IMG/VR virus record: IMGVR_UViG_3300017757_004291
Span: 1-20,657 of that record
Origin: a virus
Length of the DNA: 20,657 nucleotides
Strand: one strand, 5' to 3'
Part shown: positions 1-18,663 of the stretch, one piece after another
Layout of the letters: each line of letters opens with the position of its first letter
How positions within the stretch are numbered: the stretch's first letter is position 1
Notes under the pieces: generated by a model
What the model was told of the DNA's origin: nothing
Seen by the model: only the letters and a program-made list of their open reading frames with translations
Database searches by the model: none
Program-made: the position numbers and the translations under genes

Positions 1-396
1 ATAAACTGTAGTAAACCTTAAACCAACTTGATTTGGCATTGCGGTTTCTTCATTTACTTTTTTGCTTGTACCATACGGTGATAACCACCATTGATGTATA
101 CACGATGAAGATGCATATAATAATGGTATGTTATTATAACCACATATTTTTTGTATACGTGTAGTATTTTCTACATTATTAGTCCAGTATTTTTGTGGTT
201 CTTTAAGACTTTGTCTTACATCAGCGTATGCAGCTAAATGCACAACATGTGTTACATCGCCAGGACTAAAGTCTTCTATATCCTTTGATGGTTCTTGCCT
301 TAAATCCCATTCAACTACTTCATGGCCTTCTATGTCAAGCTTGGTTTTTAAGTGGCTACCAATAAAACCACGTGATCCTGTAATTGCTACTTTCAT
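1..396 (-). CDS. NAD-dependent epimerase/dehydratase, extended SDR (partial, C-terminus off window)
   Basis: This is a sugar-nucleotide epimerase or dehydratase of the extended short-chain dehydrogenase family. 132 codons are readable from the ATG at 396 with no stop before the window edge, so the C-terminal part is missing. The N-terminus MKVAITGSRGFIGSHL is the Rossmann NAD-binding motif (TGxxGFIG). HLAAYADV around residue 53-60 matches the usual HLAA segment. SSSCIHQ followed by YGTSK (about residue 108-112) gives the catalytic Ser and YxxxK pair. The start overlaps the stop of the glucosyltransferase gene by ATGA, and its ribosome site lies inside that gene's last codons, so the two are probably translationally coupled. 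I infer that it makes or changes the sugar donor for the neighbouring glycosyltransferase. The substrate cannot be read from this fragment. Confidence 0.85.
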   Translation of the reverse strand, partial: MKVAITGSRGFIGSHLKTKLDIEGHEVVEWDLRQEPSKDIEDFSPGDVTHVVHLAAYADVRQSLKEPQKYWTNNVENTTRIQKICGYNNIPLLYASSSCIHQWWLSPYGTSKKVNEETAMPNQVGLRFTTVY

Positions 397-1673
397 ACGA
401 AAAAATCCTCCAGTGTTGTGTTATTAACGTTGTACTTTTCATTATAATTTAATGTACTACTTATGATGTCATTATATACCGTTTCAGCATCACAGTGTTC
501 TTTCCAAAACTCATACATCATGTTTCTCCATTCATCTCTCATTACTTTATCATTTGCAAGGATAATCATTTGAGAACAAACTGCTTGTGCATTTGATGCA
601 TCAACAGCTAATGTGCCTGTATCTTTACATTGACTTATAGGCTTACCTTGCTTTCTATGTATCACATGATCACAGAAGTGTTTATGGAATAATGGTATTA
701 CACCTGCTGCAAATGAATCAGTGTGGCAGTACTCTACGTTATCACCATATATGTCTTCTTTAAAATACATAAGGTCAGAACCAAATCCACCTAAACTCAT
801 TCTTTCCATCATTTCACTATGTGTATATGCACCATATAAATACGCACCTTGATTTGTTGTTTCAGCACCGTACTCTGGATGTTTACCAGTGTTATCAATA
901 CCTTTTTCAGGTCTAAAATAATTCACCACTTGTCTTCTATCAGTCATTTCTTTTGGATTCTTATAAAGAACAGCAGGATAATTTATCGAAGCTTCTAATC
1001 CTTCAAGTATTGTAATGAAATGATTTTTACGAAGCTGATCATTATGGAAATCAATCATTACATCCGGTCCTTTCCACATAGCGGTACGACCAACCCATCT
1101 TACTAAGTAAGGGTTCTGTTGTTCAATAGGTTTCCAATACTCTTTATTGAAGTTAAAACCTACTTGCATATTAGTTAGCGGTGTTTTGATATTATTCTTT
1201 TTAACCCATTTACCAAAAGGATTGTCAATATAGTGACACATTAGTACATCGACTTTAGAACATATTTCAGCTAAGCCGGCATTCCTATTTATAGAATGTA
1301 TTTTATGGTCTACTTGAACTAAAGACTTACGTACTTTAATTTCATCCATCATTTTTATAAAGTTACTTATACAATCTTCTGGATGTGATTTAGATGGTAC
1401 GCTCCAAACAATACACATGTCGAGTTGATTGATTCTTTCAATAACCTTTGAACATGTTAATAAGTCTGGAAATTTCTTTGATGGCTTACTAACCTCATCC
1501 CAATCTGTACCTCTAAAGTAGTTTACTTTAAAGTCCATAGAGTTCATTCTTTGCCATAGTTTATCAATAGTAGCAAATACTTCTACGCCAGGGAAAAGCT
1601 TTTGAAACTCAACTACATTCTTAGTTAAGCCTACGCCTTCAACACCTCTACCTAATAAGACACCTACTTTCAT
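393..1673 (-). CDS. agt: DNA alpha-glucosyltransferase (T4 AGT-like) with C-terminal clamp-binding-like peptide
   Basis: This probably transfers glucose, or another sugar, from a nucleotide donor to 5-hydroxymethylcytosine in DNA. The 426-aa protein aligns along its length with T4 AGT as I remember it: N-terminal GRGVEGVGLTK (T4 ARGLEGCGVTK), SVPSKS about residue 91, VDHKIHSINRN about 121-131, RWVGRTAMWKG 192-202, ILEGLEAS 222-229 and HSEMMERMSLGGFG 284-297. In T4 the stretch at 121 reads HDHS; here the first His is Val while Asp-His remain, which may alter catalysis. The last residues, NTTLEDFFV, resemble a sliding-clamp-binding (PIP-type) motif and equal the DNA polymerase tail. T4 AGT is reported to bind gp45. 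An AAGGAG site lies 8 nt before the ATG, and the start overlaps the UDG-like gene's stop (ATGA). Family assignment is strong; the sugar is unknown. Confidence 0.85.
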   Translation of the reverse strand: MKVGVLLGRGVEGVGLTKNVVEFQKLFPGVEVFATIDKLWQRMNSMDFKVNYFRGTDWDEVSKPSKKFPDLLTCSKVIERINQLDMCIVWSVPSKSHPEDCISNFIKMMDEIKVRKSLVQVDHKIHSINRNAGLAEICSKVDVLMCHYIDNPFGKWVKKNNIKTPLTNMQVGFNFNKEYWKPIEQQNPYLVRWVGRTAMWKGPDVMIDFHNDQLRKNHFITILEGLEASINYPAVLYKNPKEMTDRRQVVNYFRPEKGIDNTGKHPEYGAETTNQGAYLYGAYTHSEMMERMSLGGFGSDLMYFKEDIYGDNVEYCHTDSFAAGVIPLFHKHFCDHVIHRKQGKPISQCKDTGTLAVDASNAQAVCSQMIILANDKVMRDEWRNMMYEFWKEHCDAETVYNDIISSTLNYNEKYNVNNTTLEDFFV

Positions 1674-2088: not shown

Positions 2089-2490
2089 TTAATCCTGCCA
2101 GTTTTCTGGTATCTCTTGTTCTGGAGTTACAACTCTGGTTATACCGGCTTGAATTAAACCTTTTGCGCAATCATGACATATTGGTAAACCTATTACATAG
2201 ATTGTAGAACCTTTTAATGATACACCATTTTCCGCTGCATTATAAATTGCATTCATTTCTGCATGTACTATACGTTTATATTTTATTGCTCTATTCAAAT
2301 AATATAATTCATGATCATCAACACCTCTAGGAAAACCGTTATAACCTTGAGCTATAACAGTTCTATTTCTTACGGCAACTGAGCCGACTTGTGTTGAAGG
2401 ATCTTTAGACCATGACGCTACAAGTTTAGCCATTTCTAAAAATCTTATATCCCATTTATTTGACAAGATGAAAATGCCTTTCGTAAACAT
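2089..2490 (-). CDS. dCMP deaminase
   Basis: This is a zinc-dependent deoxycytidylate deaminase converting dCMP to dUMP in the cytoplasm. The core KWDIRFLEMAKLVASWSKDPSTQVGSV is typical of bacterial and phage dCMP deaminases. HAEMNA (about residue 77-82) supplies a zinc ligand and the catalytic Glu. CHDC (about residue 104-107) supplies the two Cys ligands, preceded by PI rather than the common PP or P. The ATG at 2490 overlaps the upstream hydroxymethylase by 35 nt and adds nine residues before the usual N-terminus. A TTG at 2466 with GAAAGG upstream would start right at SNKWD and is a credible alternative. It sits beside dCMP hydroxymethylase, so both enzymes compete for dCMP, as in T4. Confidence 0.9.
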   Translation of the reverse strand: MFTKGIFILSNKWDIRFLEMAKLVASWSKDPSTQVGSVAVRNRTVIAQGYNGFPRGVDDHELYYLNRAIKYKRIVHAEMNAIYNAAENGVSLKGSTIYVIGLPICHDCAKGLIQAGITRVVTPEQEIPENWQD

Positions 2491-3148
2491 GCAAGTTTTG
2501 TACTTGCCAGATTATGTCACCAACTTTTAATTCTGGTGTACCATCTTCTTTACAGTCATTATAGTCTTTTATCATTTGTTCTAAAACATAAAGCTGCCAA
2601 GCATAATCATTCTTGTATCCGAACACAACATCGTTTGAGCGCATTTGTACCACGGACTGTAAGTAATTATCGCGTATGTAATAAGTAACGGCGTTAGTAC
2701 ATATAAAATCATTTTTACCATCTTCATTATATTCCATCCATATACTAGGTCTTGTGTAAATCATTGAAGCTCTACGGCCATCTGGATTTGTTAGTAATTC
2801 ATCAAGCACTTGACCATACTGATGATGATACTTATCAGAATAAATTAAATGACCATAGTTAGAATTGATTTGACCAAAATCATTTGATGATGCTAGCCAA
2901 GCTTCAGGTACATTTCGATTATAATTTTCTTTAATCCAATTGACATTTGTTGATTGGCTTTCATACCATGCTTTTTCTATTTCTATATATGATTTGTTTG
3001 GTGTACCAAATATTGCTGGTTGATCAGCAAAGAAACTGGCACCGATAAGTTCAATAGTTTTTTGACCTGACCTATCCATAACAAAATCTTCTTTGTCCAA
3101 AGCATTAATAAAGTAATGTTTTATATCGCTTGTATTTTCTTGTATCAT
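2456..3148 (-). CDS. 42: Deoxycytidylate 5-hydroxymethylase (T4 gp42-like)
   Basis: This is a thymidylate-synthase-fold enzyme that puts a hydroxymethyl group on dCMP using methylene-tetrahydrofolate. The 230-aa sequence tracks T4 gp42 closely: DFVMDRSGQKTIELIGASF (residue 21-39), the IFG segment, GQINSNYG (92-99), RRASMIYTRPS (125-135), DFICTN with catalytic Cys150, and MRSNDVVFGYKNDYAW (169-184). Asp181 occupies the position where thymidylate synthases have the dUMP-selecting Asn; in T4 gp42 this residue (Asp179) goes with cytosine specificity. It is therefore a hydroxymethylase rather than a thymidylate synthase. The start overlaps the DUF1599-like gene by ATGA and has a strong GGAGGAAGGG upstream. 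The product would feed hmdCMP to kinases and gp43, giving hmC DNA that the downstream glucosyltransferase could modify. Confidence 0.92.
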   Translation of the reverse strand: MIQENTSDIKHYFINALDKEDFVMDRSGQKTIELIGASFFADQPAIFGTPNKSYIEIEKAWYESQSTNVNWIKENYNRNVPEAWLASSNDFGQINSNYGHLIYSDKYHHQYGQVLDELLTNPDGRRASMIYTRPSIWMEYNEDGKNDFICTNAVTYYIRDNYLQSVVQMRSNDVVFGYKNDYAWQLYVLEQMIKDYNDCKEDGTPELKVGDIIWQVQNLHVYERHFHLVK

Positions 3149-11036: not shown

Positions 11037-11342
11037 TTATACGGCGAAAGATTCGCCACAACCACAGGATGCAACTGCATTTGGATTTATAACTTTTAAA
11101 TATGAGCCGCCTAGTTCAGTAACATAATCTATTGTACAACCTGCTACAAACATTTCGGCCATTGGATCGAGAACTAAACAATCTTCGTATGGTTGACTCC
11201 ATTTTACATTAGGCCAGTTTTTCTTATAATCCCAGACATACTGAAATCCAGAGCAGCCTCCTCCATTAACACCAAGAGTAATGTAATCATCCTTTTTAAT
11301 ATCAGTTAGATATTTTTTTGCGTTTTCAGTTAGCTTAATCAT
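11037..11342 (-). CDS. A-type iron-sulfur carrier (IscA/ErpA/HesB-like)
   Basis: This 101-aa Fe-S cluster carrier has the three conserved cysteines: GGGCSGF (Cys30) and SCGCGESF (Cys93, Cys95). It accepts clusters from a scaffold and passes them to apoproteins in the cytoplasm. A TTG six bases further up would add two residues. I chose the ATG at 11342 because it forms an ATGA overlap with the SufT-like gene. It is the last gene of the operon that begins at 14715. A-type carriers are known in marine T4-like phages. Which Fe-S enzyme it serves is not visible in this window. Confidence 0.92.
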   Translation of the reverse strand: MIKLTENAKKYLTDIKKDDYITLGVNGGGCSGFQYVWDYKKNWPNVKWSQPYEDCLVLDPMAEMFVAGCTIDYVTELGGSYLKVINPNAVASCGCGESFAV

Positions 11343-11656
11343 GTCCAACCCATAGCCATTTTAGTTTCTTCCGGAACCATGTCCATACTGAATGGTGGTT
11401 GAAAAGTACAATTGGCTATACTTTCTTTTATTCCTTCTACCATTCCAGCTTGTTGAATATTTTGATTTATTTCATCTGCCATTGGACAGAAAGCACTTGT
11501 AAGTGTATGTGTAATTTTAACCACTGTATTATTTTCTAATATTTCTATATCATAAATTAAACCCAAATGTATGACAGAAATACTTGGCATCTCAGGATCG
11601 TATACCTGTTCTAAGTTCTTTACAACTTGAGCCATTATTTTATTTTTATCATTCAT
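11339..11656 (-). CDS. SufT/MIP18 (DUF59) family Fe-S assembly protein
   Basis: This 105-aa protein has the DUF59 pattern: YDPEMPSISVIHLGLIYDIEI (about residue 19-39) and VKITHTLTSAFCPMADEI with the conserved Cys57. Family members help mature Fe-S proteins. It overlaps the APT gene by 8 nt and the A-type carrier by 4 nt, so the two Fe-S factors are made together. The C-terminus (FSMDMVPEETKMAMGW) resembles the end of PaaD/SufT-type proteins. Having both factors on a phage suggests a demand for Fe-S cluster delivery during infection; this is inference. Confidence 0.85.
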   Translation of the reverse strand: MNDKNKIMAQVVKNLEQVYDPEMPSISVIHLGLIYDIEILENNTVVKITHTLTSAFCPMADEINQNIQQAGMVEGIKESIANCTFQPPFSMDMVPEETKMAMGWT

Positions 11657-12179
11657 ATGATACCGCGTTATAAAATGGAATATTTCTTTCTTTTATTTTT
11701 GTAGATCCACCAAGCTTAGGTAAATCTATAACACATAAGACTGCTACAACTTTAGCTGATACACTTTCAACAATATCAATAGTTGCTTTCATTGTTCCGC
11801 CAGTGGCACAAAGATCATCTACAATAATTACGCGATCTTTATTACTAATACTGTCTTTTTGTATCTGTAACGTAGATGTACCATATTCTAAATCATATGT
11901 TTTAGATATTACTGGTCCGGGAAGCTTACCTTCTTTTCTTGCTAAAACTAAAGGTATAGACGAATTATGAGCTAAGGGCGCTGCAAATATAAAACCTCTT
12001 GCATCTATTCCTATAATTTTATCAGTATAGCTTTCACTAGTATACTTTATTAATTTTTTAAATATAAAATCATTTGTGAGTTTAAACCCGTCACCATTAC
12101 ATAAACCTGCGGTGTCTTTAAAACTTACACCTTTAACAGGCCAATCTTCAAAACTTCTAATGTAATCTTTTATTTTCAT
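11649..12179 (-). CDS. apt: Adenine phosphoribosyltransferase
   Basis: This type I phosphoribosyltransferase turns adenine plus PRPP into AMP. The 176-aa length is normal for APT. WPVKGVSFKD (about residue 13-22) is the APT-specific N-terminal signature. GIDARGFIFAAPLA (57-70) and ARKEGKLPG (80-88) match the active-site loops. VIIVDDLCATGGTM (117-130) is the PRPP-binding motif with two acidic residues. The start overlaps the oxygenase stop by ATGA. It sits after a BMP-family purine-binding protein and an oxygenase, which supports a salvage role for imported or released adenine. APT is uncommon on phages. Confidence 0.92.
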   Translation of the reverse strand: MKIKDYIRSFEDWPVKGVSFKDTAGLCNGDGFKLTNDFIFKKLIKYTSESYTDKIIGIDARGFIFAAPLAHNSSIPLVLARKEGKLPGPVISKTYDLEYGTSTLQIQKDSISNKDRVIIVDDLCATGGTMKATIDIVESVSAKVVAVLCVIDLPKLGGSTKIKERNIPFYNAVSYE

Positions 12180-13036
12180 TTATAAGTTTGCTCTAATCTA
12201 AATTCCAAATATTCATCACTGAAAACTGGACGATACTTTGTTGGTGTGTCATGTATATTAACTACGGCTGTTCTCGGTTTAGGATCAACAAAATGTGGCA
12301 TACTATATCTTGGTAAATGTATGTGTGAATTTACAACTCTATGTTTTGTACTTACAAAATAATCATTAGTCCATCTTTGTAATAGATCACCGATGTTAAC
12401 AACGACTCCATCTTTTGCATAAGGAACTGGATGCCATTGGCCTTCTAAGTCTTGTACTTCCAACCCTGGTACATCATTAATCTGCCATAATAGTGTAATG
12501 GTACCGTAGTCAGAATGTTCACCTATTCTCAATTGTTTTGGTTCAATGTCACCTTCATATGCTGGATAGTGTATAAACCTTGTAGTACTATAGTTTTCTT
12601 TATGTGCATCAACAAGAACAGTACGGCTTTTCATTATATTATCAAATTTTTCTAATATATTAAGTGTAAGTCTATCTGCTATATCAATACTTTCTAAAGC
12701 GGATGGTTTAAAATCTTTTATTTCTGTTGGCCAGTTTGTAGTTCTTTTATCGTTATAATTAAAACTCTCTTTCATATCTTTTGGTGCGGTAGGATCCACG
12801 TTTTCTTTTAACCACATAGTGTAACCTATATTAGATTCAATACCTTCATATGCGTATTGCATCTTTTTTTCGAGAGATAAAGTAAAAAATTCTTTCATTT
12901 TCTCCGACCAAGCTTCCATTGAATCCTGCTCATGAGATGTTAGGCAATCAGTAAATACAGCGAAGCCTACAGTCGTGTAGGCTTCTTTAATTTTATCGAG
13001 GACGTTAGGCCCTTTAAAATCAATTACTGGTATCAT
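12176..13036 (-). CDS. 2-oxoglutarate/Fe(II)-dependent oxygenase, isopenicillin-N-synthase family
   Basis: This 286-aa cytoplasmic non-haem iron oxygenase has the facial triad H174-x-D176 (GEHSDYGTITLL) and H232 (STKHRVVN). The RxS motif RYSMPHF (243-249) binds the 2-oxoglutarate carboxylate. The N-terminal IPVIDF and GFAVFTD segments are the DIOX_N-type start. The substrate cannot be deduced from sequence. The ATGA overlaps with both the purine-binding protein and APT suggest that it acts on a purine or purine derivative, for instance oxidative dealkylation that frees adenine for APT. That is a hypothesis. Other uses, such as amino-acid or nucleobase hydroxylation, remain possible. Confidence 0.85.
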   Translation of the reverse strand: MIPVIDFKGPNVLDKIKEAYTTVGFAVFTDCLTSHEQDSMEAWSEKMKEFFTLSLEKKMQYAYEGIESNIGYTMWLKENVDPTAPKDMKESFNYNDKRTTNWPTEIKDFKPSALESIDIADRLTLNILEKFDNIMKSRTVLVDAHKENYSTTRFIHYPAYEGDIEPKQLRIGEHSDYGTITLLWQINDVPGLEVQDLEGQWHPVPYAKDGVVVNIGDLLQRWTNDYFVSTKHRVVNSHIHLPRYSMPHFVDPKPRTAVVNIHDTPTKYRPVFSDEYLEFRLEQTYK

Positions 13037-14100
13037 TTTGGCACCGTAGCGTCTATGCCTTCGACATAGTACATCATGCTATTTAAATGAGCATCACTAG
13101 CAATCTCTCCATCTTTTAATTGAAGTTTACCAGTGTTGTCTTTAATAGGTCCAGTGAAAGCAAAGTACTTACCATCTGTAATACCTTCTTTAATTTTCTG
13201 TGCAAATGCTTCAACATCTACAGGCATATTAGTAAATGGCGCCATTTGTACGACATCATCTTTCATATGACCAAAGTAATCTCCAGTTTTCCAATTACCA
13301 TCTATAACTGCTTGTACCTTTTCAATATAATAAGGAGACCAGTTATCGATAGTAGCAGTAAGCTGTGCTTTTGGTGCAAATCTTATTTGATCAGAAGCCT
13401 GACCAAAACCTGTTACACCATTTTTCTGTGCAGTTTGTAGAGGTGCAGGTGAATCAGTATGTTGAGCTACCATGTCACATCCTTCTGCAATCATAACCGC
13501 TGCAGCATCAGCTTCCTTAGGTGGATTGTACCAAGAGTTTACCCATACAATATCGATGTCAACTTTTGGATTCATTTTCTTTGCGCCTAAGTAGAAAGTA
13601 TTAATTTCTCTAATTACTTCAGGAATTGGAAATGCACCTACATAACAAATCTTATTTGTTTTAGTCATCATTCCAGCGATAATTCCTTGAACGTGTCTTG
13701 CTTGATATAATCTTAAACCATAGCTAGCCATGTTTTCAGATTGCTTGTAACCAGTTGCATGTTCAAATTTTACATTTGGAAATTCTTTAGCAACTTTTAA
13801 CATAGGTTCCATATAACCAAAAGATGTAGCGAATATAATATCAGCTCCGTCTTTTGCCATAGCCCTTATTGCTCTTTCGGCATCAGGTCCATACTTTACA
13901 CTTTCCATGTATATAGTTTCTACTTTATCACCAAAATGTTTTTCAACATCAAGTCGACCAATATCATGTCTGTAAGTCCAACCGTGGTCGCCGATAGGTC
14001 CTACGTATATAAATCCAACTTTCACCTTGTCAGCGTACGCTGACAAACAAAAAAACAAAGACAGTGTTGCCACTGCCATTGCGTGCAGTATCGATTTCAT
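13033..14100 (-). CDS. BMP-family ABC transporter periplasmic substrate-binding protein
   Basis: This exported 355-aa protein is of the Bmp/PnrA family, whose characterised members bind purine nucleosides. The N-terminus is a Sec signal peptide: Lys2, a hydrophobic run to about residue 20, then SAYA|DK as a signal-peptidase I site. There is no lipobox, so it is soluble in the periplasm. The mature part begins VKVGFIYVGPIGDHGWTYRHD, typical of BMP proteins. MVAQHTDSPAPLQTAQKNG and GFGQASDQIRFAPKAQLTATIDNW are family landmarks. No permease or ATPase is nearby, so it must use the host transporter. SD AAGGAG is 6 nt upstream of the ATG, and the stop overlaps the oxygenase (ATGA). A transporter-binding protein on a phage is unusual. 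Confidence 0.9.
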   Translation of the reverse strand: MKSILHAMAVATLSLFFCLSAYADKVKVGFIYVGPIGDHGWTYRHDIGRLDVEKHFGDKVETIYMESVKYGPDAERAIRAMAKDGADIIFATSFGYMEPMLKVAKEFPNVKFEHATGYKQSENMASYGLRLYQARHVQGIIAGMMTKTNKICYVGAFPIPEVIREINTFYLGAKKMNPKVDIDIVWVNSWYNPPKEADAAAVMIAEGCDMVAQHTDSPAPLQTAQKNGVTGFGQASDQIRFAPKAQLTATIDNWSPYYIEKVQAVIDGNWKTGDYFGHMKDDVVQMAPFTNMPVDVEAFAQKIKEGITDGKYFAFTGPIKDNTGKLQLKDGEIASDAHLNSMMYYVEGIDATVPK

Positions 14101-17256: not shown

Positions 17257-17476
17257 TTTTTTGTACCATTGATTGTAATTCTGTGACTATAGGAACTATT
17301 GTAGCATCCCACCATTTTATAAATTCATTGTAGTTATTATCGAAATATGATTCTTTTATAAAGTTTTCAACTTGTAAACATTCAAATGCCATAGATGGTT
17401 GTATTATACTATGTGCTGATAATAACTCACACATTGCAAGTTGATTTACAAATTGATTTAACATTTCTGTTTCCAT
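17243..17476 (-). CDS. Hypothetical small protein between the flavoprotein and gp62
   Basis: This unrecognised 77-aa helical protein begins METEMLNQFVNQLAMCELLSAHS and contains FIKWWDATIVPIVTELQSM. I chose the ATG at 17476, which has AAAGGA upstream and forms a TAATG junction with the oxidoreductase gene. The longer frame from 17524 overlaps that gene by 49 nt and is not needed. Confidence 0.65.
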   Translation of the reverse strand: METEMLNQFVNQLAMCELLSAHSIIQPSMAFECLQVENFIKESYFDNNYNEFIKWWDATIVPIVTELQSMVQKNESL

Positions 17477-18663
17477 TATATATCCTTTGTTAACTTTTCT
17501 GCTAGTGCCATTCCCATTGTCCAACCAAGATGACCGGCACCGCTATTAACCCATAAGCCTTTTACTTTACCAACAACAGGTAACATATTCGGTGTCATTG
17601 GTCTTAAGCATGACCATTTCTCATAATTATCTTTATCAACAAAAGTATTTTCTTTTACCCAGTCGGCTAAAGGTTTAATTCTGTCTTCCCTCATATCATG
17701 ATTCCAACCGGCAAGTTCTGCTGTACCTGCAACTCTAAATACATTATTACCAAAAGGCGAAGCTACTATTTTTCTATCGTCATCAAGCACAGATATAGTA
17801 GGAGCTTCATAAGCATTTTGATATGTTATAGAATAACCTTTGATTGGATATATATTTAAATTTGGTAAAAATGTTTTTGTATATGCACCTGCACATACTA
17901 TAACTTCATCATAATCTTTTTTAAGGGTATCGATACTTATTGCCATATCTCTTCGATTCGACCAATAGACTTCATCTTCATTACGAACAATTTTATTAAT
18001 ACGAAAACTATAATTATATTTTTTATCAGAAAGCATATGAGTTTGTAGTGCAGTACAAAAGGCATGTATATCACCAACTGAATCACCTTTAGTTATAGTA
18101 GCACCTACCACATCATTTGATTTAATATTATACTTTATAAGATTTGTTTTTGTTTTAACTCTACCCCAACCAGTGTCTTTAAATCTATCTAGAGTTCTTT
18201 GTGCTTTATCCCAAGACTTTTGATTTTTATATATGTGTAATATACCACAGTCATTATGATGAAAGTCAATGTCTATTTCTTTCATTAATTTTTTAAGTAA
18301 CTTACGAGATCTTAAACTATATTCAATAGTTCTACGTGTGTTATAATCGTACTTATTAGTTATGGTTGCACCAATAAAACCAGCAATCCATTTAATTTTA
18401 GACCAAGACCAATGATCTGGTCTAAAAGCAAGAGGTGCATCAGGTTGTGTTAACCATTTAACACCTTTGATTATATTATCGTAACTATTCCACACTTCTG
18501 CATTACATACAGAAAGTTGACCACCGTTTGCGTAACTACATTGTTCAGCCACACCGTTTGGATCAAATAATACTACTTTATATTTTTTAGCTAGGAAGTA
18601 TGCAGTGGTTATGCCAGCGACACCTCCACCGATAATGGCTATGCTCTTTTTAGAGTTCCCCAA
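17476..18663 (-). CDS. FAD-dependent D-amino-acid dehydrogenase-like oxidoreductase (DadA family)
   Basis: This 395-aa flavoenzyme of the DAO/DadA group oxidises an amine such as a D-amino acid. The N-terminal Rossmann motif IAIIGGGVAGITTAYFLAKK (residue 8-27) binds FAD. EQCSYANGGQLS (about 40-51) is the DadA-like flavin loop. VIVCAGAYT, RPMTPNMLPVVG and SGAGHLGWTMGMALAEKL at the C-terminus complete the FAD site. The start is TTG at 18663, with GGAG 7 nt upstream inside the glutaredoxin gene (25-nt overlap). No export signal is seen. It interrupts the T4 order gp44-gp62, so it appears to be an acquired metabolic gene carried in the core replication operon. Substrate unknown. Confidence 0.85.
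   Translation of the reverse strand: MGNSKKSIAIIGGGVAGITTAYFLAKKYKVVLFDPNGVAEQCSYANGGQLSVCNAEVWNSYDNIIKGVKWLTQPDAPLAFRPDHWSWSKIKWIAGFIGATITNKYDYNTRRTIEYSLRSRKLLKKLMKEIDIDFHHNDCGILHIYKNQKSWDKAQRTLDRFKDTGWGRVKTKTNLIKYNIKSNDVVGATITKGDSVGDIHAFCTALQTHMLSDKKYNYSFRINKIVRNEDEVYWSNRRDMAISIDTLKKDYDEVIVCAGAYTKTFLPNLNIYPIKGYSITYQNAYEAPTISVLDDDRKIVASPFGNNVFRVAGTAELAGWNHDMREDRIKPLADWVKENTFVDKDNYEKWSCLRPMTPNMLPVVGKVKGLWVNSGAGHLGWTMGMALAEKLTKDI

Follow-up and report, generated by a model that had tools for sequence, protein, structure and literature searches.

A conserved viral gene pair for a predicted purine-binding protein and a 2-oxoglutarate oxygenase, with an optional adenine phosphoribosyltransferase gene

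In a stretch of viral DNA of 20,657 nucleotides (positions 1 to 20,657 of IMG/VR virus record IMGVR_UViG_3300017757_004291; the whole stretch is called the window below), three neighbouring genes encode a BMP-type binding protein, an Fe(II)/2-oxoglutarate (2OG) oxygenase and an adenine phosphoribosyltransferase (APT). The original prediction had treated these genes as one unit for capture and salvage of purines. Comparison with other viral contigs revealed that the conserved unit is the BMP-oxygenase pair and not the three genes. We consider it slightly better than an even chance (a probability of roughly 0.55) that the pair forms a virus-borne module, by which a purine base is captured via the host transporter, oxidised (probably with removal of a side group) and optionally salvaged.

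The binder-oxygenase pair in viral genomes

All three genes are present in the window as complete, intact open reading frames (ORFs) in one direction, at the place where the cassette had been predicted:

13033..14100, minus strand: BMP/PnrA-type purine-binding protein, putatively exported (355 aa; PF02608)
12176..13036, minus strand: Fe(II)/2OG oxygenase, IPNS-like (286 aa; PF03171 and PF14226)
11649..12179, minus strand: APT, optional third gene (176 aa; PF00156, NF002636)
13033..13036, minus strand: ATGA overlap of the BMP and oxygenase genes (sequence; TCAT on the plus strand)
12176..12179, minus strand: ATGA overlap of the oxygenase and APT genes (sequence; TCAT on the plus strand)

Both 4-bp junctions read ATGA in the reading direction, as had been claimed. 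However, a fourth gene, for a SUF/PaaD-like protein (11656-11339), also overlaps APT, by 8 bp, so tight overlaps alone do not delimit a three-gene unit.

The linkage was determined in a sample of IMG/VR contigs consisting of 21 oxygenase loci and the best 80 of 241 BMP loci, from which 9 repeat contigs were dropped and in which the window was counted. The oxygenase gene came directly after the BMP gene in 81 of the 84 marine viral cases with a following ORF; the three exceptions were a second, different BMP in locus L013, and loci L018 and L093. When loci were instead sampled by their oxygenase (80 of 223 retained, overlapping the first sample), BMP was directly upstream of the oxygenase in 75 of 79 loci, with 1 further locus at a contig edge. 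Among the remaining four, L413 had a transporter insertion of the L093 type, L426 and L436 had an apparent BMP one ORF further up, and in L434 the contig started too near the oxygenase to judge. Several contigs are from the same virus as the window (L002-L005, oxygenase 100% identical), so these counts are not all independent.

The distance matrices of the two proteins were compared for 68 loci with a usable BMP and oxygenase, reduced to 47 by collapsing those with 97% BMP identity. In this set BMP identity went down to 64% and oxygenase identity to 59%, and the gene upstream of BMP belonged to 13 clusters. The matrices correlated with r 0.37, a value reached in 0 of 2000 permutations; shared viral ancestry remains in this test. 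The gene arrangement is not due to chance, because it was found again on several viral genome backbones.

In the set sampled by oxygenase, 75 loci have an ORF after the oxygenase, and in 27 of them (about a third) this next ORF is APT; its place as a fixed member of the unit was given up. Seen from the other side, 72 viral APT loci had the oxygenase directly upstream (33) or one gene further up (4), were at a contig edge (4) or had other neighbours (31). The latter include, by eye, genes resembling MTA/SAH nucleosidase and IMPDH, and once a MetK-like gene. Up to four genes downstream of the oxygenase, an APT, PurA or phosphoribosyl pyrophosphate (PRPP)-motif gene was present in 35 of 67 loci. 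PurA comes directly after the oxygenase in L017 and L019 (L017: NF002223 550 bits, cut-off 402; PurZ model below cut-off), and the gene after PurA belongs in both to a cluster of which the tested member showed a below-cut-off resemblance to xanthine phosphoribosyltransferase.

The setting of the cassette is viral. The window contains a T4-like replication gene set (gp43-like DNA polymerase, gp44-like clamp loader, clamp-loader A subunit and gp45-like clamp), a phage lysozyme and an HSP20 gene. The cassette is flanked by the polymerase gene on one side and the clamp-loader and clamp genes on the other, and metabolic genes amid viral genes, as is required of auxiliary metabolic genes, were likewise seen in many IMG/VR contigs. 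Among 50,697 known-phage records no relative of at least 60% identity was found; the 12 BMP records and 1 oxygenase record there were all unannotated faecal contigs. PHROGs gave no match for the BMP protein and placed the oxygenase in a family of unknown function.

Several other genes were observed in the window and in the sampled loci. Window positions 393-1673, 2089-2490 and 2456-3148 encode, in this order, a DNA alpha-glucosyltransferase (AGT), a dCMP deaminase and a thymidylate-synthase-fold protein, from which the phage DNA may carry a glucosylated modified cytosine. Positions 17476-18663 encode an FAD enzyme that resembles D-amino acid dehydrogenase, with scores under the DadA cut-offs, which is unusual for a virus; sister contigs have the same gene. 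Two Fe-S assembly-type genes, IscA/ErpA-like (11037-11348) and the SUF/PaaD-like gene (11339-11656), overlap each other and APT. In L018 (2383-5841) and L093 (7111-10537) a whole NMT1/THI5-type ABC transporter (binding protein, ATPase and permease) and an arylsulfotransferase-like gene lie between BMP and oxygenase; these inserts represent a complete small-molecule importer in a virus. GTP cyclohydrolase I is encoded just upstream of BMP in some viral loci (over the Pfam cut-off in L093), and weak QueD-like (L010) and QueE-like (L018) genes, below cut-off, are found elsewhere in viral loci, hinting at deazaguanine DNA modification.

Predicted properties of the three proteins

The BMP protein matched PF02608 with 180.4 bits (cut-off 24.1; E 5.4e-53) and its N terminus resembles a Sec signal by eye. 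Its two best solved relatives are Brucella 3s99 (E 3e-119) and AtzT, 6pi5 (E 2.2e-101). According to the AtzT paper, AtzT contacts the purine through Tyr45, Ser97, Phe98, Glu165, Trp194, Asn218 and Asn220, and has a Kd (dissociation constant) of 0.11 uM for guanine and 2.5 uM for adenine; thymine, cytosine and uracil are bound at 620 uM or weaker. The same paper notes that the 3s99 structure contains a modelled adenine. Pocket residues were transferred via alignment to these solved relatives (number in the AtzT paper = chain number + 5). The predicted phage pocket consists of W41, S93, F94, E161, W190, H214 and D216, which is identical to 3s99 at 7 of 7 positions and like AtzT at 5 of 7, with W41 for Tyr45 counted as like. 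All seven residues were found in 93 of 95 viral rows, a count that includes duplicate contigs; of the other two rows, one is a fragment in which the first position is missing and one is the second BMP in L013. In 27 bacterial BMPs, from loci with a rut-linked type of oxygenase-BMP arrangement (L137-like, see below), position 93 is Ala and position 161 is Gln, Val, Ser or Pro; Ser93 and Glu161 are thus lost in these rut-like sets. The purine pocket and the solved homologues, together with the bacterial operon context described below, agree with the exported purine-type binder that had been predicted, and it is well supported that the probable ligand is a purine base, most like adenine.

No BMP-type permease was found in the viral ORFs of the sampled IMG/VR loci, where only NMT1-type transporter ATPases matched, so the virus would rely on a host transporter. 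A complete BMP transporter was seen by eye in SAR116 genome G001 (locus L268), and the proposed use of a host transporter is consistent with both observations.

Motifs, Pfam domains (PF03171, E 5e-19; PF14226, E 5.6e-13) and fold all point to the second protein being the 2OG-Fe(II) oxygenase it had been taken for. The metal ligands would be H174, D176 and H232, and the 2OG residues R243 and S245; the HxD...H and RxS catalytic residues are present in 77 of 77 viral rows of at least 270 aa. The top Foldseek match of its AlphaFold model (mean pLDDT 77.7) was thymine-7-hydroxylase (T7H) of Neurospora, with approximately 30% identity. In VIA-align, T7H (Z 26.9, root mean square deviation 2.7, 277 aligned) and 3oox (Z 26.7, root mean square deviation 2.5, 273 aligned) were about equal, and T7H is the nearest solved enzyme of known substrate. 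T7H holds the free base between Tyr217 and Phe292 (PMC4787775). In the alignment Tyr217, Phe292, Asn87 and Arg190 are kept as Y177, F249, N69 and R153, so that four of six T7H substrate contacts appear to be kept and two replaced. The use of such T7H-like residues as proof of a nucleobase substrate was weakened, because Arg, Tyr/Phe and Phe are kept in most bacterial relatives of other context; being family-wide, the aromatic pair and Arg are compatible with a flat ring substrate and are no proof of one. Another T7H-like oxygenase, with an unproven role, has been reported (PMC9304392).

The third protein (PF00156, E 1.9e-16) passed the NCBIfam models NF002636 (178.8 bits, cut-off 125) and NF002634 (172.5, cut-off 170), missed the stricter APT model TIGR01090 (167.1, cut-off 185.85), and matched solved APTs with E values of 1.5e-38 and below. 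Its naming as APT was upheld by the curated model NF002636.

Bacterial relatives and movement of the pair

Of the genomes sampled, 79 of 385 from alphaproteobacteria and 27 of 369 from gammaproteobacteria encode BMPs of this type (profile E of 1e-100 or better). Many of 59 bacterial BMP loci adjoin BMP-type permeases (by eye), and among the tested neighbours adenosine deaminase and 8-oxoguanine deaminase scored over cut-off, and L273 has XdhB. In Oceanobacter genome G005 (L266) a BMP (51% identity) and an oxygenase (31%) occur together, followed by allantoicase and PuuE allantoinase, both over equivalog cut-offs, and ureidoglycolate lyase, over its subfamily cut-off. A different 2OG-VOC-BMP-ATPase-permease set is present in Oceanobacter locus L137, beside the pyrimidine operon genes rutA, rutB, rutD and rutR. 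An unrelated pathway around the bacterial oxygenase homologues had been named as the finding that would speak against the purine idea. The homologues adjacent to BMP are tied to nucleobase pathways, and the purine idea survives; the Oceanobacter allantoin cluster is in its favour, but the rut context is one of pyrimidines.

L137 and similar gammaproteobacterial loci share a conserved 2OG oxygenase, glyoxalase-like protein, BMP, ATPase and permeases beside the rut operon, and no function was found for the L137-type oxygenase or glyoxalase-like protein. As a separate candidate, replacement of xanthine dehydrogenase by the oxygenase was considered and lowered. XdhB was over cut-off in 10 of 11 genomes tested, and in 8 of the 9 of these with a co-directional BMP-oxygenase pair; as XdhB is usually present alongside the pair, the oxygenase is unlikely to be a replacement and would rather add a step.

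Close oxygenase relatives (61-66%) in the genome_contigs collection were found in five SAR116 loci and one other alphaproteobacterial metagenome-assembled genome, with BMP directly upstream in all. The next relatives are from SAR324: L105 (43%) has no BMP in the locus, and in L106 (47%) the locus is truncated by the end of the contig. The close form occurs in 6 of 136 genomes of the order of G001. In the oxygenase tree the SAR116 gene lies within viral diversity: it groups with two viral rows (100/97), and this group falls in a clade of 32 rows of which 31 are viral (97/94). The position of SAR116 relative to the viruses was not resolved in the BMP tree. In L099 and L101 the pair lies next to a tRNA-Arg gene, a tRNA-Leu gene lies approximately 0.5 kb upstream of it in L103, and in two genomes of the SAR116 order without the close pair (G403 and G405) a phage integrase flanks the same tRNA-Arg. 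The oxygenase family is mainly viral, and SAR116 bacteria appear to have got the oxygenase from viruses at a tRNA integration site; for SAR116, transfer from virus to bacterium is the simplest reading.

The SAR116 tRNA sites (L099, L101, L103, L355 and L357) are occupied by the BMP-oxygenase pair in some cases and by a phage integrase in others. A xanthine phosphoribosyltransferase gene beside the SAR116 pair (L099 and L101) was rejected as a functional partner: it occurs in 10 of the 12 tested genomes of the SAR116 order, has the same downstream neighbour where the pair is absent (G403 and G405), and is on another contig than the pair in G002 and G424.

Proposed function and comparison with known systems

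In the purine module that we favour, the phage periplasmic protein would bind a purine base, most like adenine, and pass it to the BMP-type ABC transporter of the host. A phage PstS is thought to act likewise for phosphate, by supplying the binding protein. The cytoplasmic Fe(II)/2OG oxygenase would subsequently oxidise the imported base or a derivative of it, the likeliest chemistry being hydroxylation of an alkyl side group, which is then lost. The substrate may, as originally proposed, be a methylated or alkylated adenine, and the product may go into phage DNA. Two points favour dealkylation over hydroxylation of the ring: genomes with relatives already have XdhB, and related oxygenases occur in both purine and pyrimidine clusters, alkyl removal being a step that both could share. 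In about a third of the viruses, the window included, APT would convert free adenine to AMP; a few others have xanthine phosphoribosyltransferase-like or PurA genes nearby, which may serve instead. The phage would thereby obtain purine nucleotides, and perhaps nitrogen, for making its DNA in nutrient-poor seawater. Use of the host transporter, the identity of the ligand, its oxidation and the feeding of APT are steps that we infer.

Several observations weigh against this scheme. APT does not adjoin the pair in 48 of 75 viral loci, 31 of 72 viral APT loci have other neighbours, and the mirror-tree correlation is modest (r 0.37). T7H Glu122 and Asn294 are N93 and D251 in the phage oxygenase, and the aromatic and Arg positions shared with T7H are a general trait of the oxygenase family and kept in most bacterial relatives of other context. 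One related oxygenase group (L137 type) is located in pyrimidine and not purine clusters, and removal of an alkyl group is a hypothesis that rests on indirect reasoning. A further-reaching account is put forward as a tentative and rather doubtful one: a purine side-group oxidase module would have diversified in viruses, with the oxygenase as a new dealkylase of free purine bases and the binder as its dedicated purine catcher, by which phages recover adenine from modified seawater purines, and SAR116 would later have taken over the viral pair at tRNA integration sites and retained it for its own purine use.

With T7H as the closest solved enzyme and Asn87, Arg190, Tyr217 and Phe292 kept, the oxygenase might instead act on thymine or another pyrimidine supplied by the binder, and a related oxygenase-BMP set does adjoin rutABDR in Oceanobacter. 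This is unlikely in our view, since the pyrimidines are bound by AtzT only at 620 uM or weaker, and the phage protein keeps the purine contacts; moreover, the rut-like sets have a different pocket, T7H Glu122 and Asn294 are replaced, and purine salvage genes lie downstream in some viruses. We rate as equally improbable a catabolic role, in which the oxygenase hydroxylates the purine ring, the urate/allantoin route of the host frees the nitrogen and APT is incidental. The Oceanobacter pair beside allantoin genes and the optional presence of APT would suit it, but XdhB is already in 10 of 11 genomes tested, and salvage genes (APT and PurA) beside the pair in phages are commoner than any recognised catabolic gene.

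The three proteins could also be neighbours without a common pathway, BMP taking up a purine, the oxygenase doing something else (for instance base modification of phage DNA) and APT recycling adenine from S-adenosylmethionine metabolism. The DNA-modification genes of the window phage (AGT glucosyltransferase, thymidylate-synthase fold and dCMP deaminase) are in line with this, as is APT in other marine viruses near MTA/SAH nucleosidase-like genes and once a MetK-like gene (by eye). Yet the BMP-oxygenase link is almost invariant in viruses and recurs in SAR116, distant homologues are paired in Oceanobacter and other bacteria, and a DNA-modifying oxygenase is not expected to track a periplasmic binding protein; we hold this explanation for marginally the least probable of all.

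The cassette was not described in the open-access literature searched. Other 2OG genes have been found beside ferrochelatase in pelagiphages (PMC9599517), and the part of PMC7785012 consulted has APT as a label only. Purine use genes are near-universal in SAR11 and present in about half of SAR116 genomes, Prochlorococcus exudes purines, and purine flux is a reported cross-feeding route among Prochlorococcus, SAR11 and SAR116 (PMC11698098); the terms phage, oxygenase, dioxygenase, bmp and 2-oxoglutarate had no match in that paper. SAR11 purine genes are also treated in PMC12636525, with no match for the terms oxygenase, BMP or phage. If the favoured module is real, viruses alter which dissolved purines a marine bacterium takes up and uses, the IPNS-like oxygenase group beside BMP nucleobase transporters gains a first substrate class, and the pair is a case of metabolic genes moving from viruses to bacteria.

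AtzT and Brucella 3s99 are of the same family as the phage binder, with similarity along the whole mature protein and a purine pocket; the phage protein differs in being viral, without an adjoining permease or ATPase and coupled to an oxygenase, and its contacts H214 and D216 depart from AtzT. Oceanobacter L266 has the same two families in the same order and in a purine-degradation setting, but is only 51% (BMP) and 31% (oxygenase) identical, and no reported function was found for it. T7H is, like the phage enzyme, an IPNS-like 2OG oxygenase, acting on a free base, and shares the metal and 2OG residues, the stacking pair, Asn87 and Arg190; in the phage enzyme Glu122 and Asn294 are replaced, and it is viral and linked to a purine rather than a thymine binder. 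Phage C48C1, recorded as Kyanoviridae, has the nearest polymerase in the phage collection (49.7% identity). It likewise encodes clamp, clamp loader, Hsp20 and polymerase, in this order; its Hsp20 and polymerase genes are separated by two hypothetical proteins, at the place occupied in the window by the cassette and other genes. With the PstS of cyanophages the module shares the principle that, of a host ABC importer, the periplasmic binding protein alone comes from the virus; here, in contrast, the predicted ligand is a purine and an oxidative enzyme accompanies the binder.

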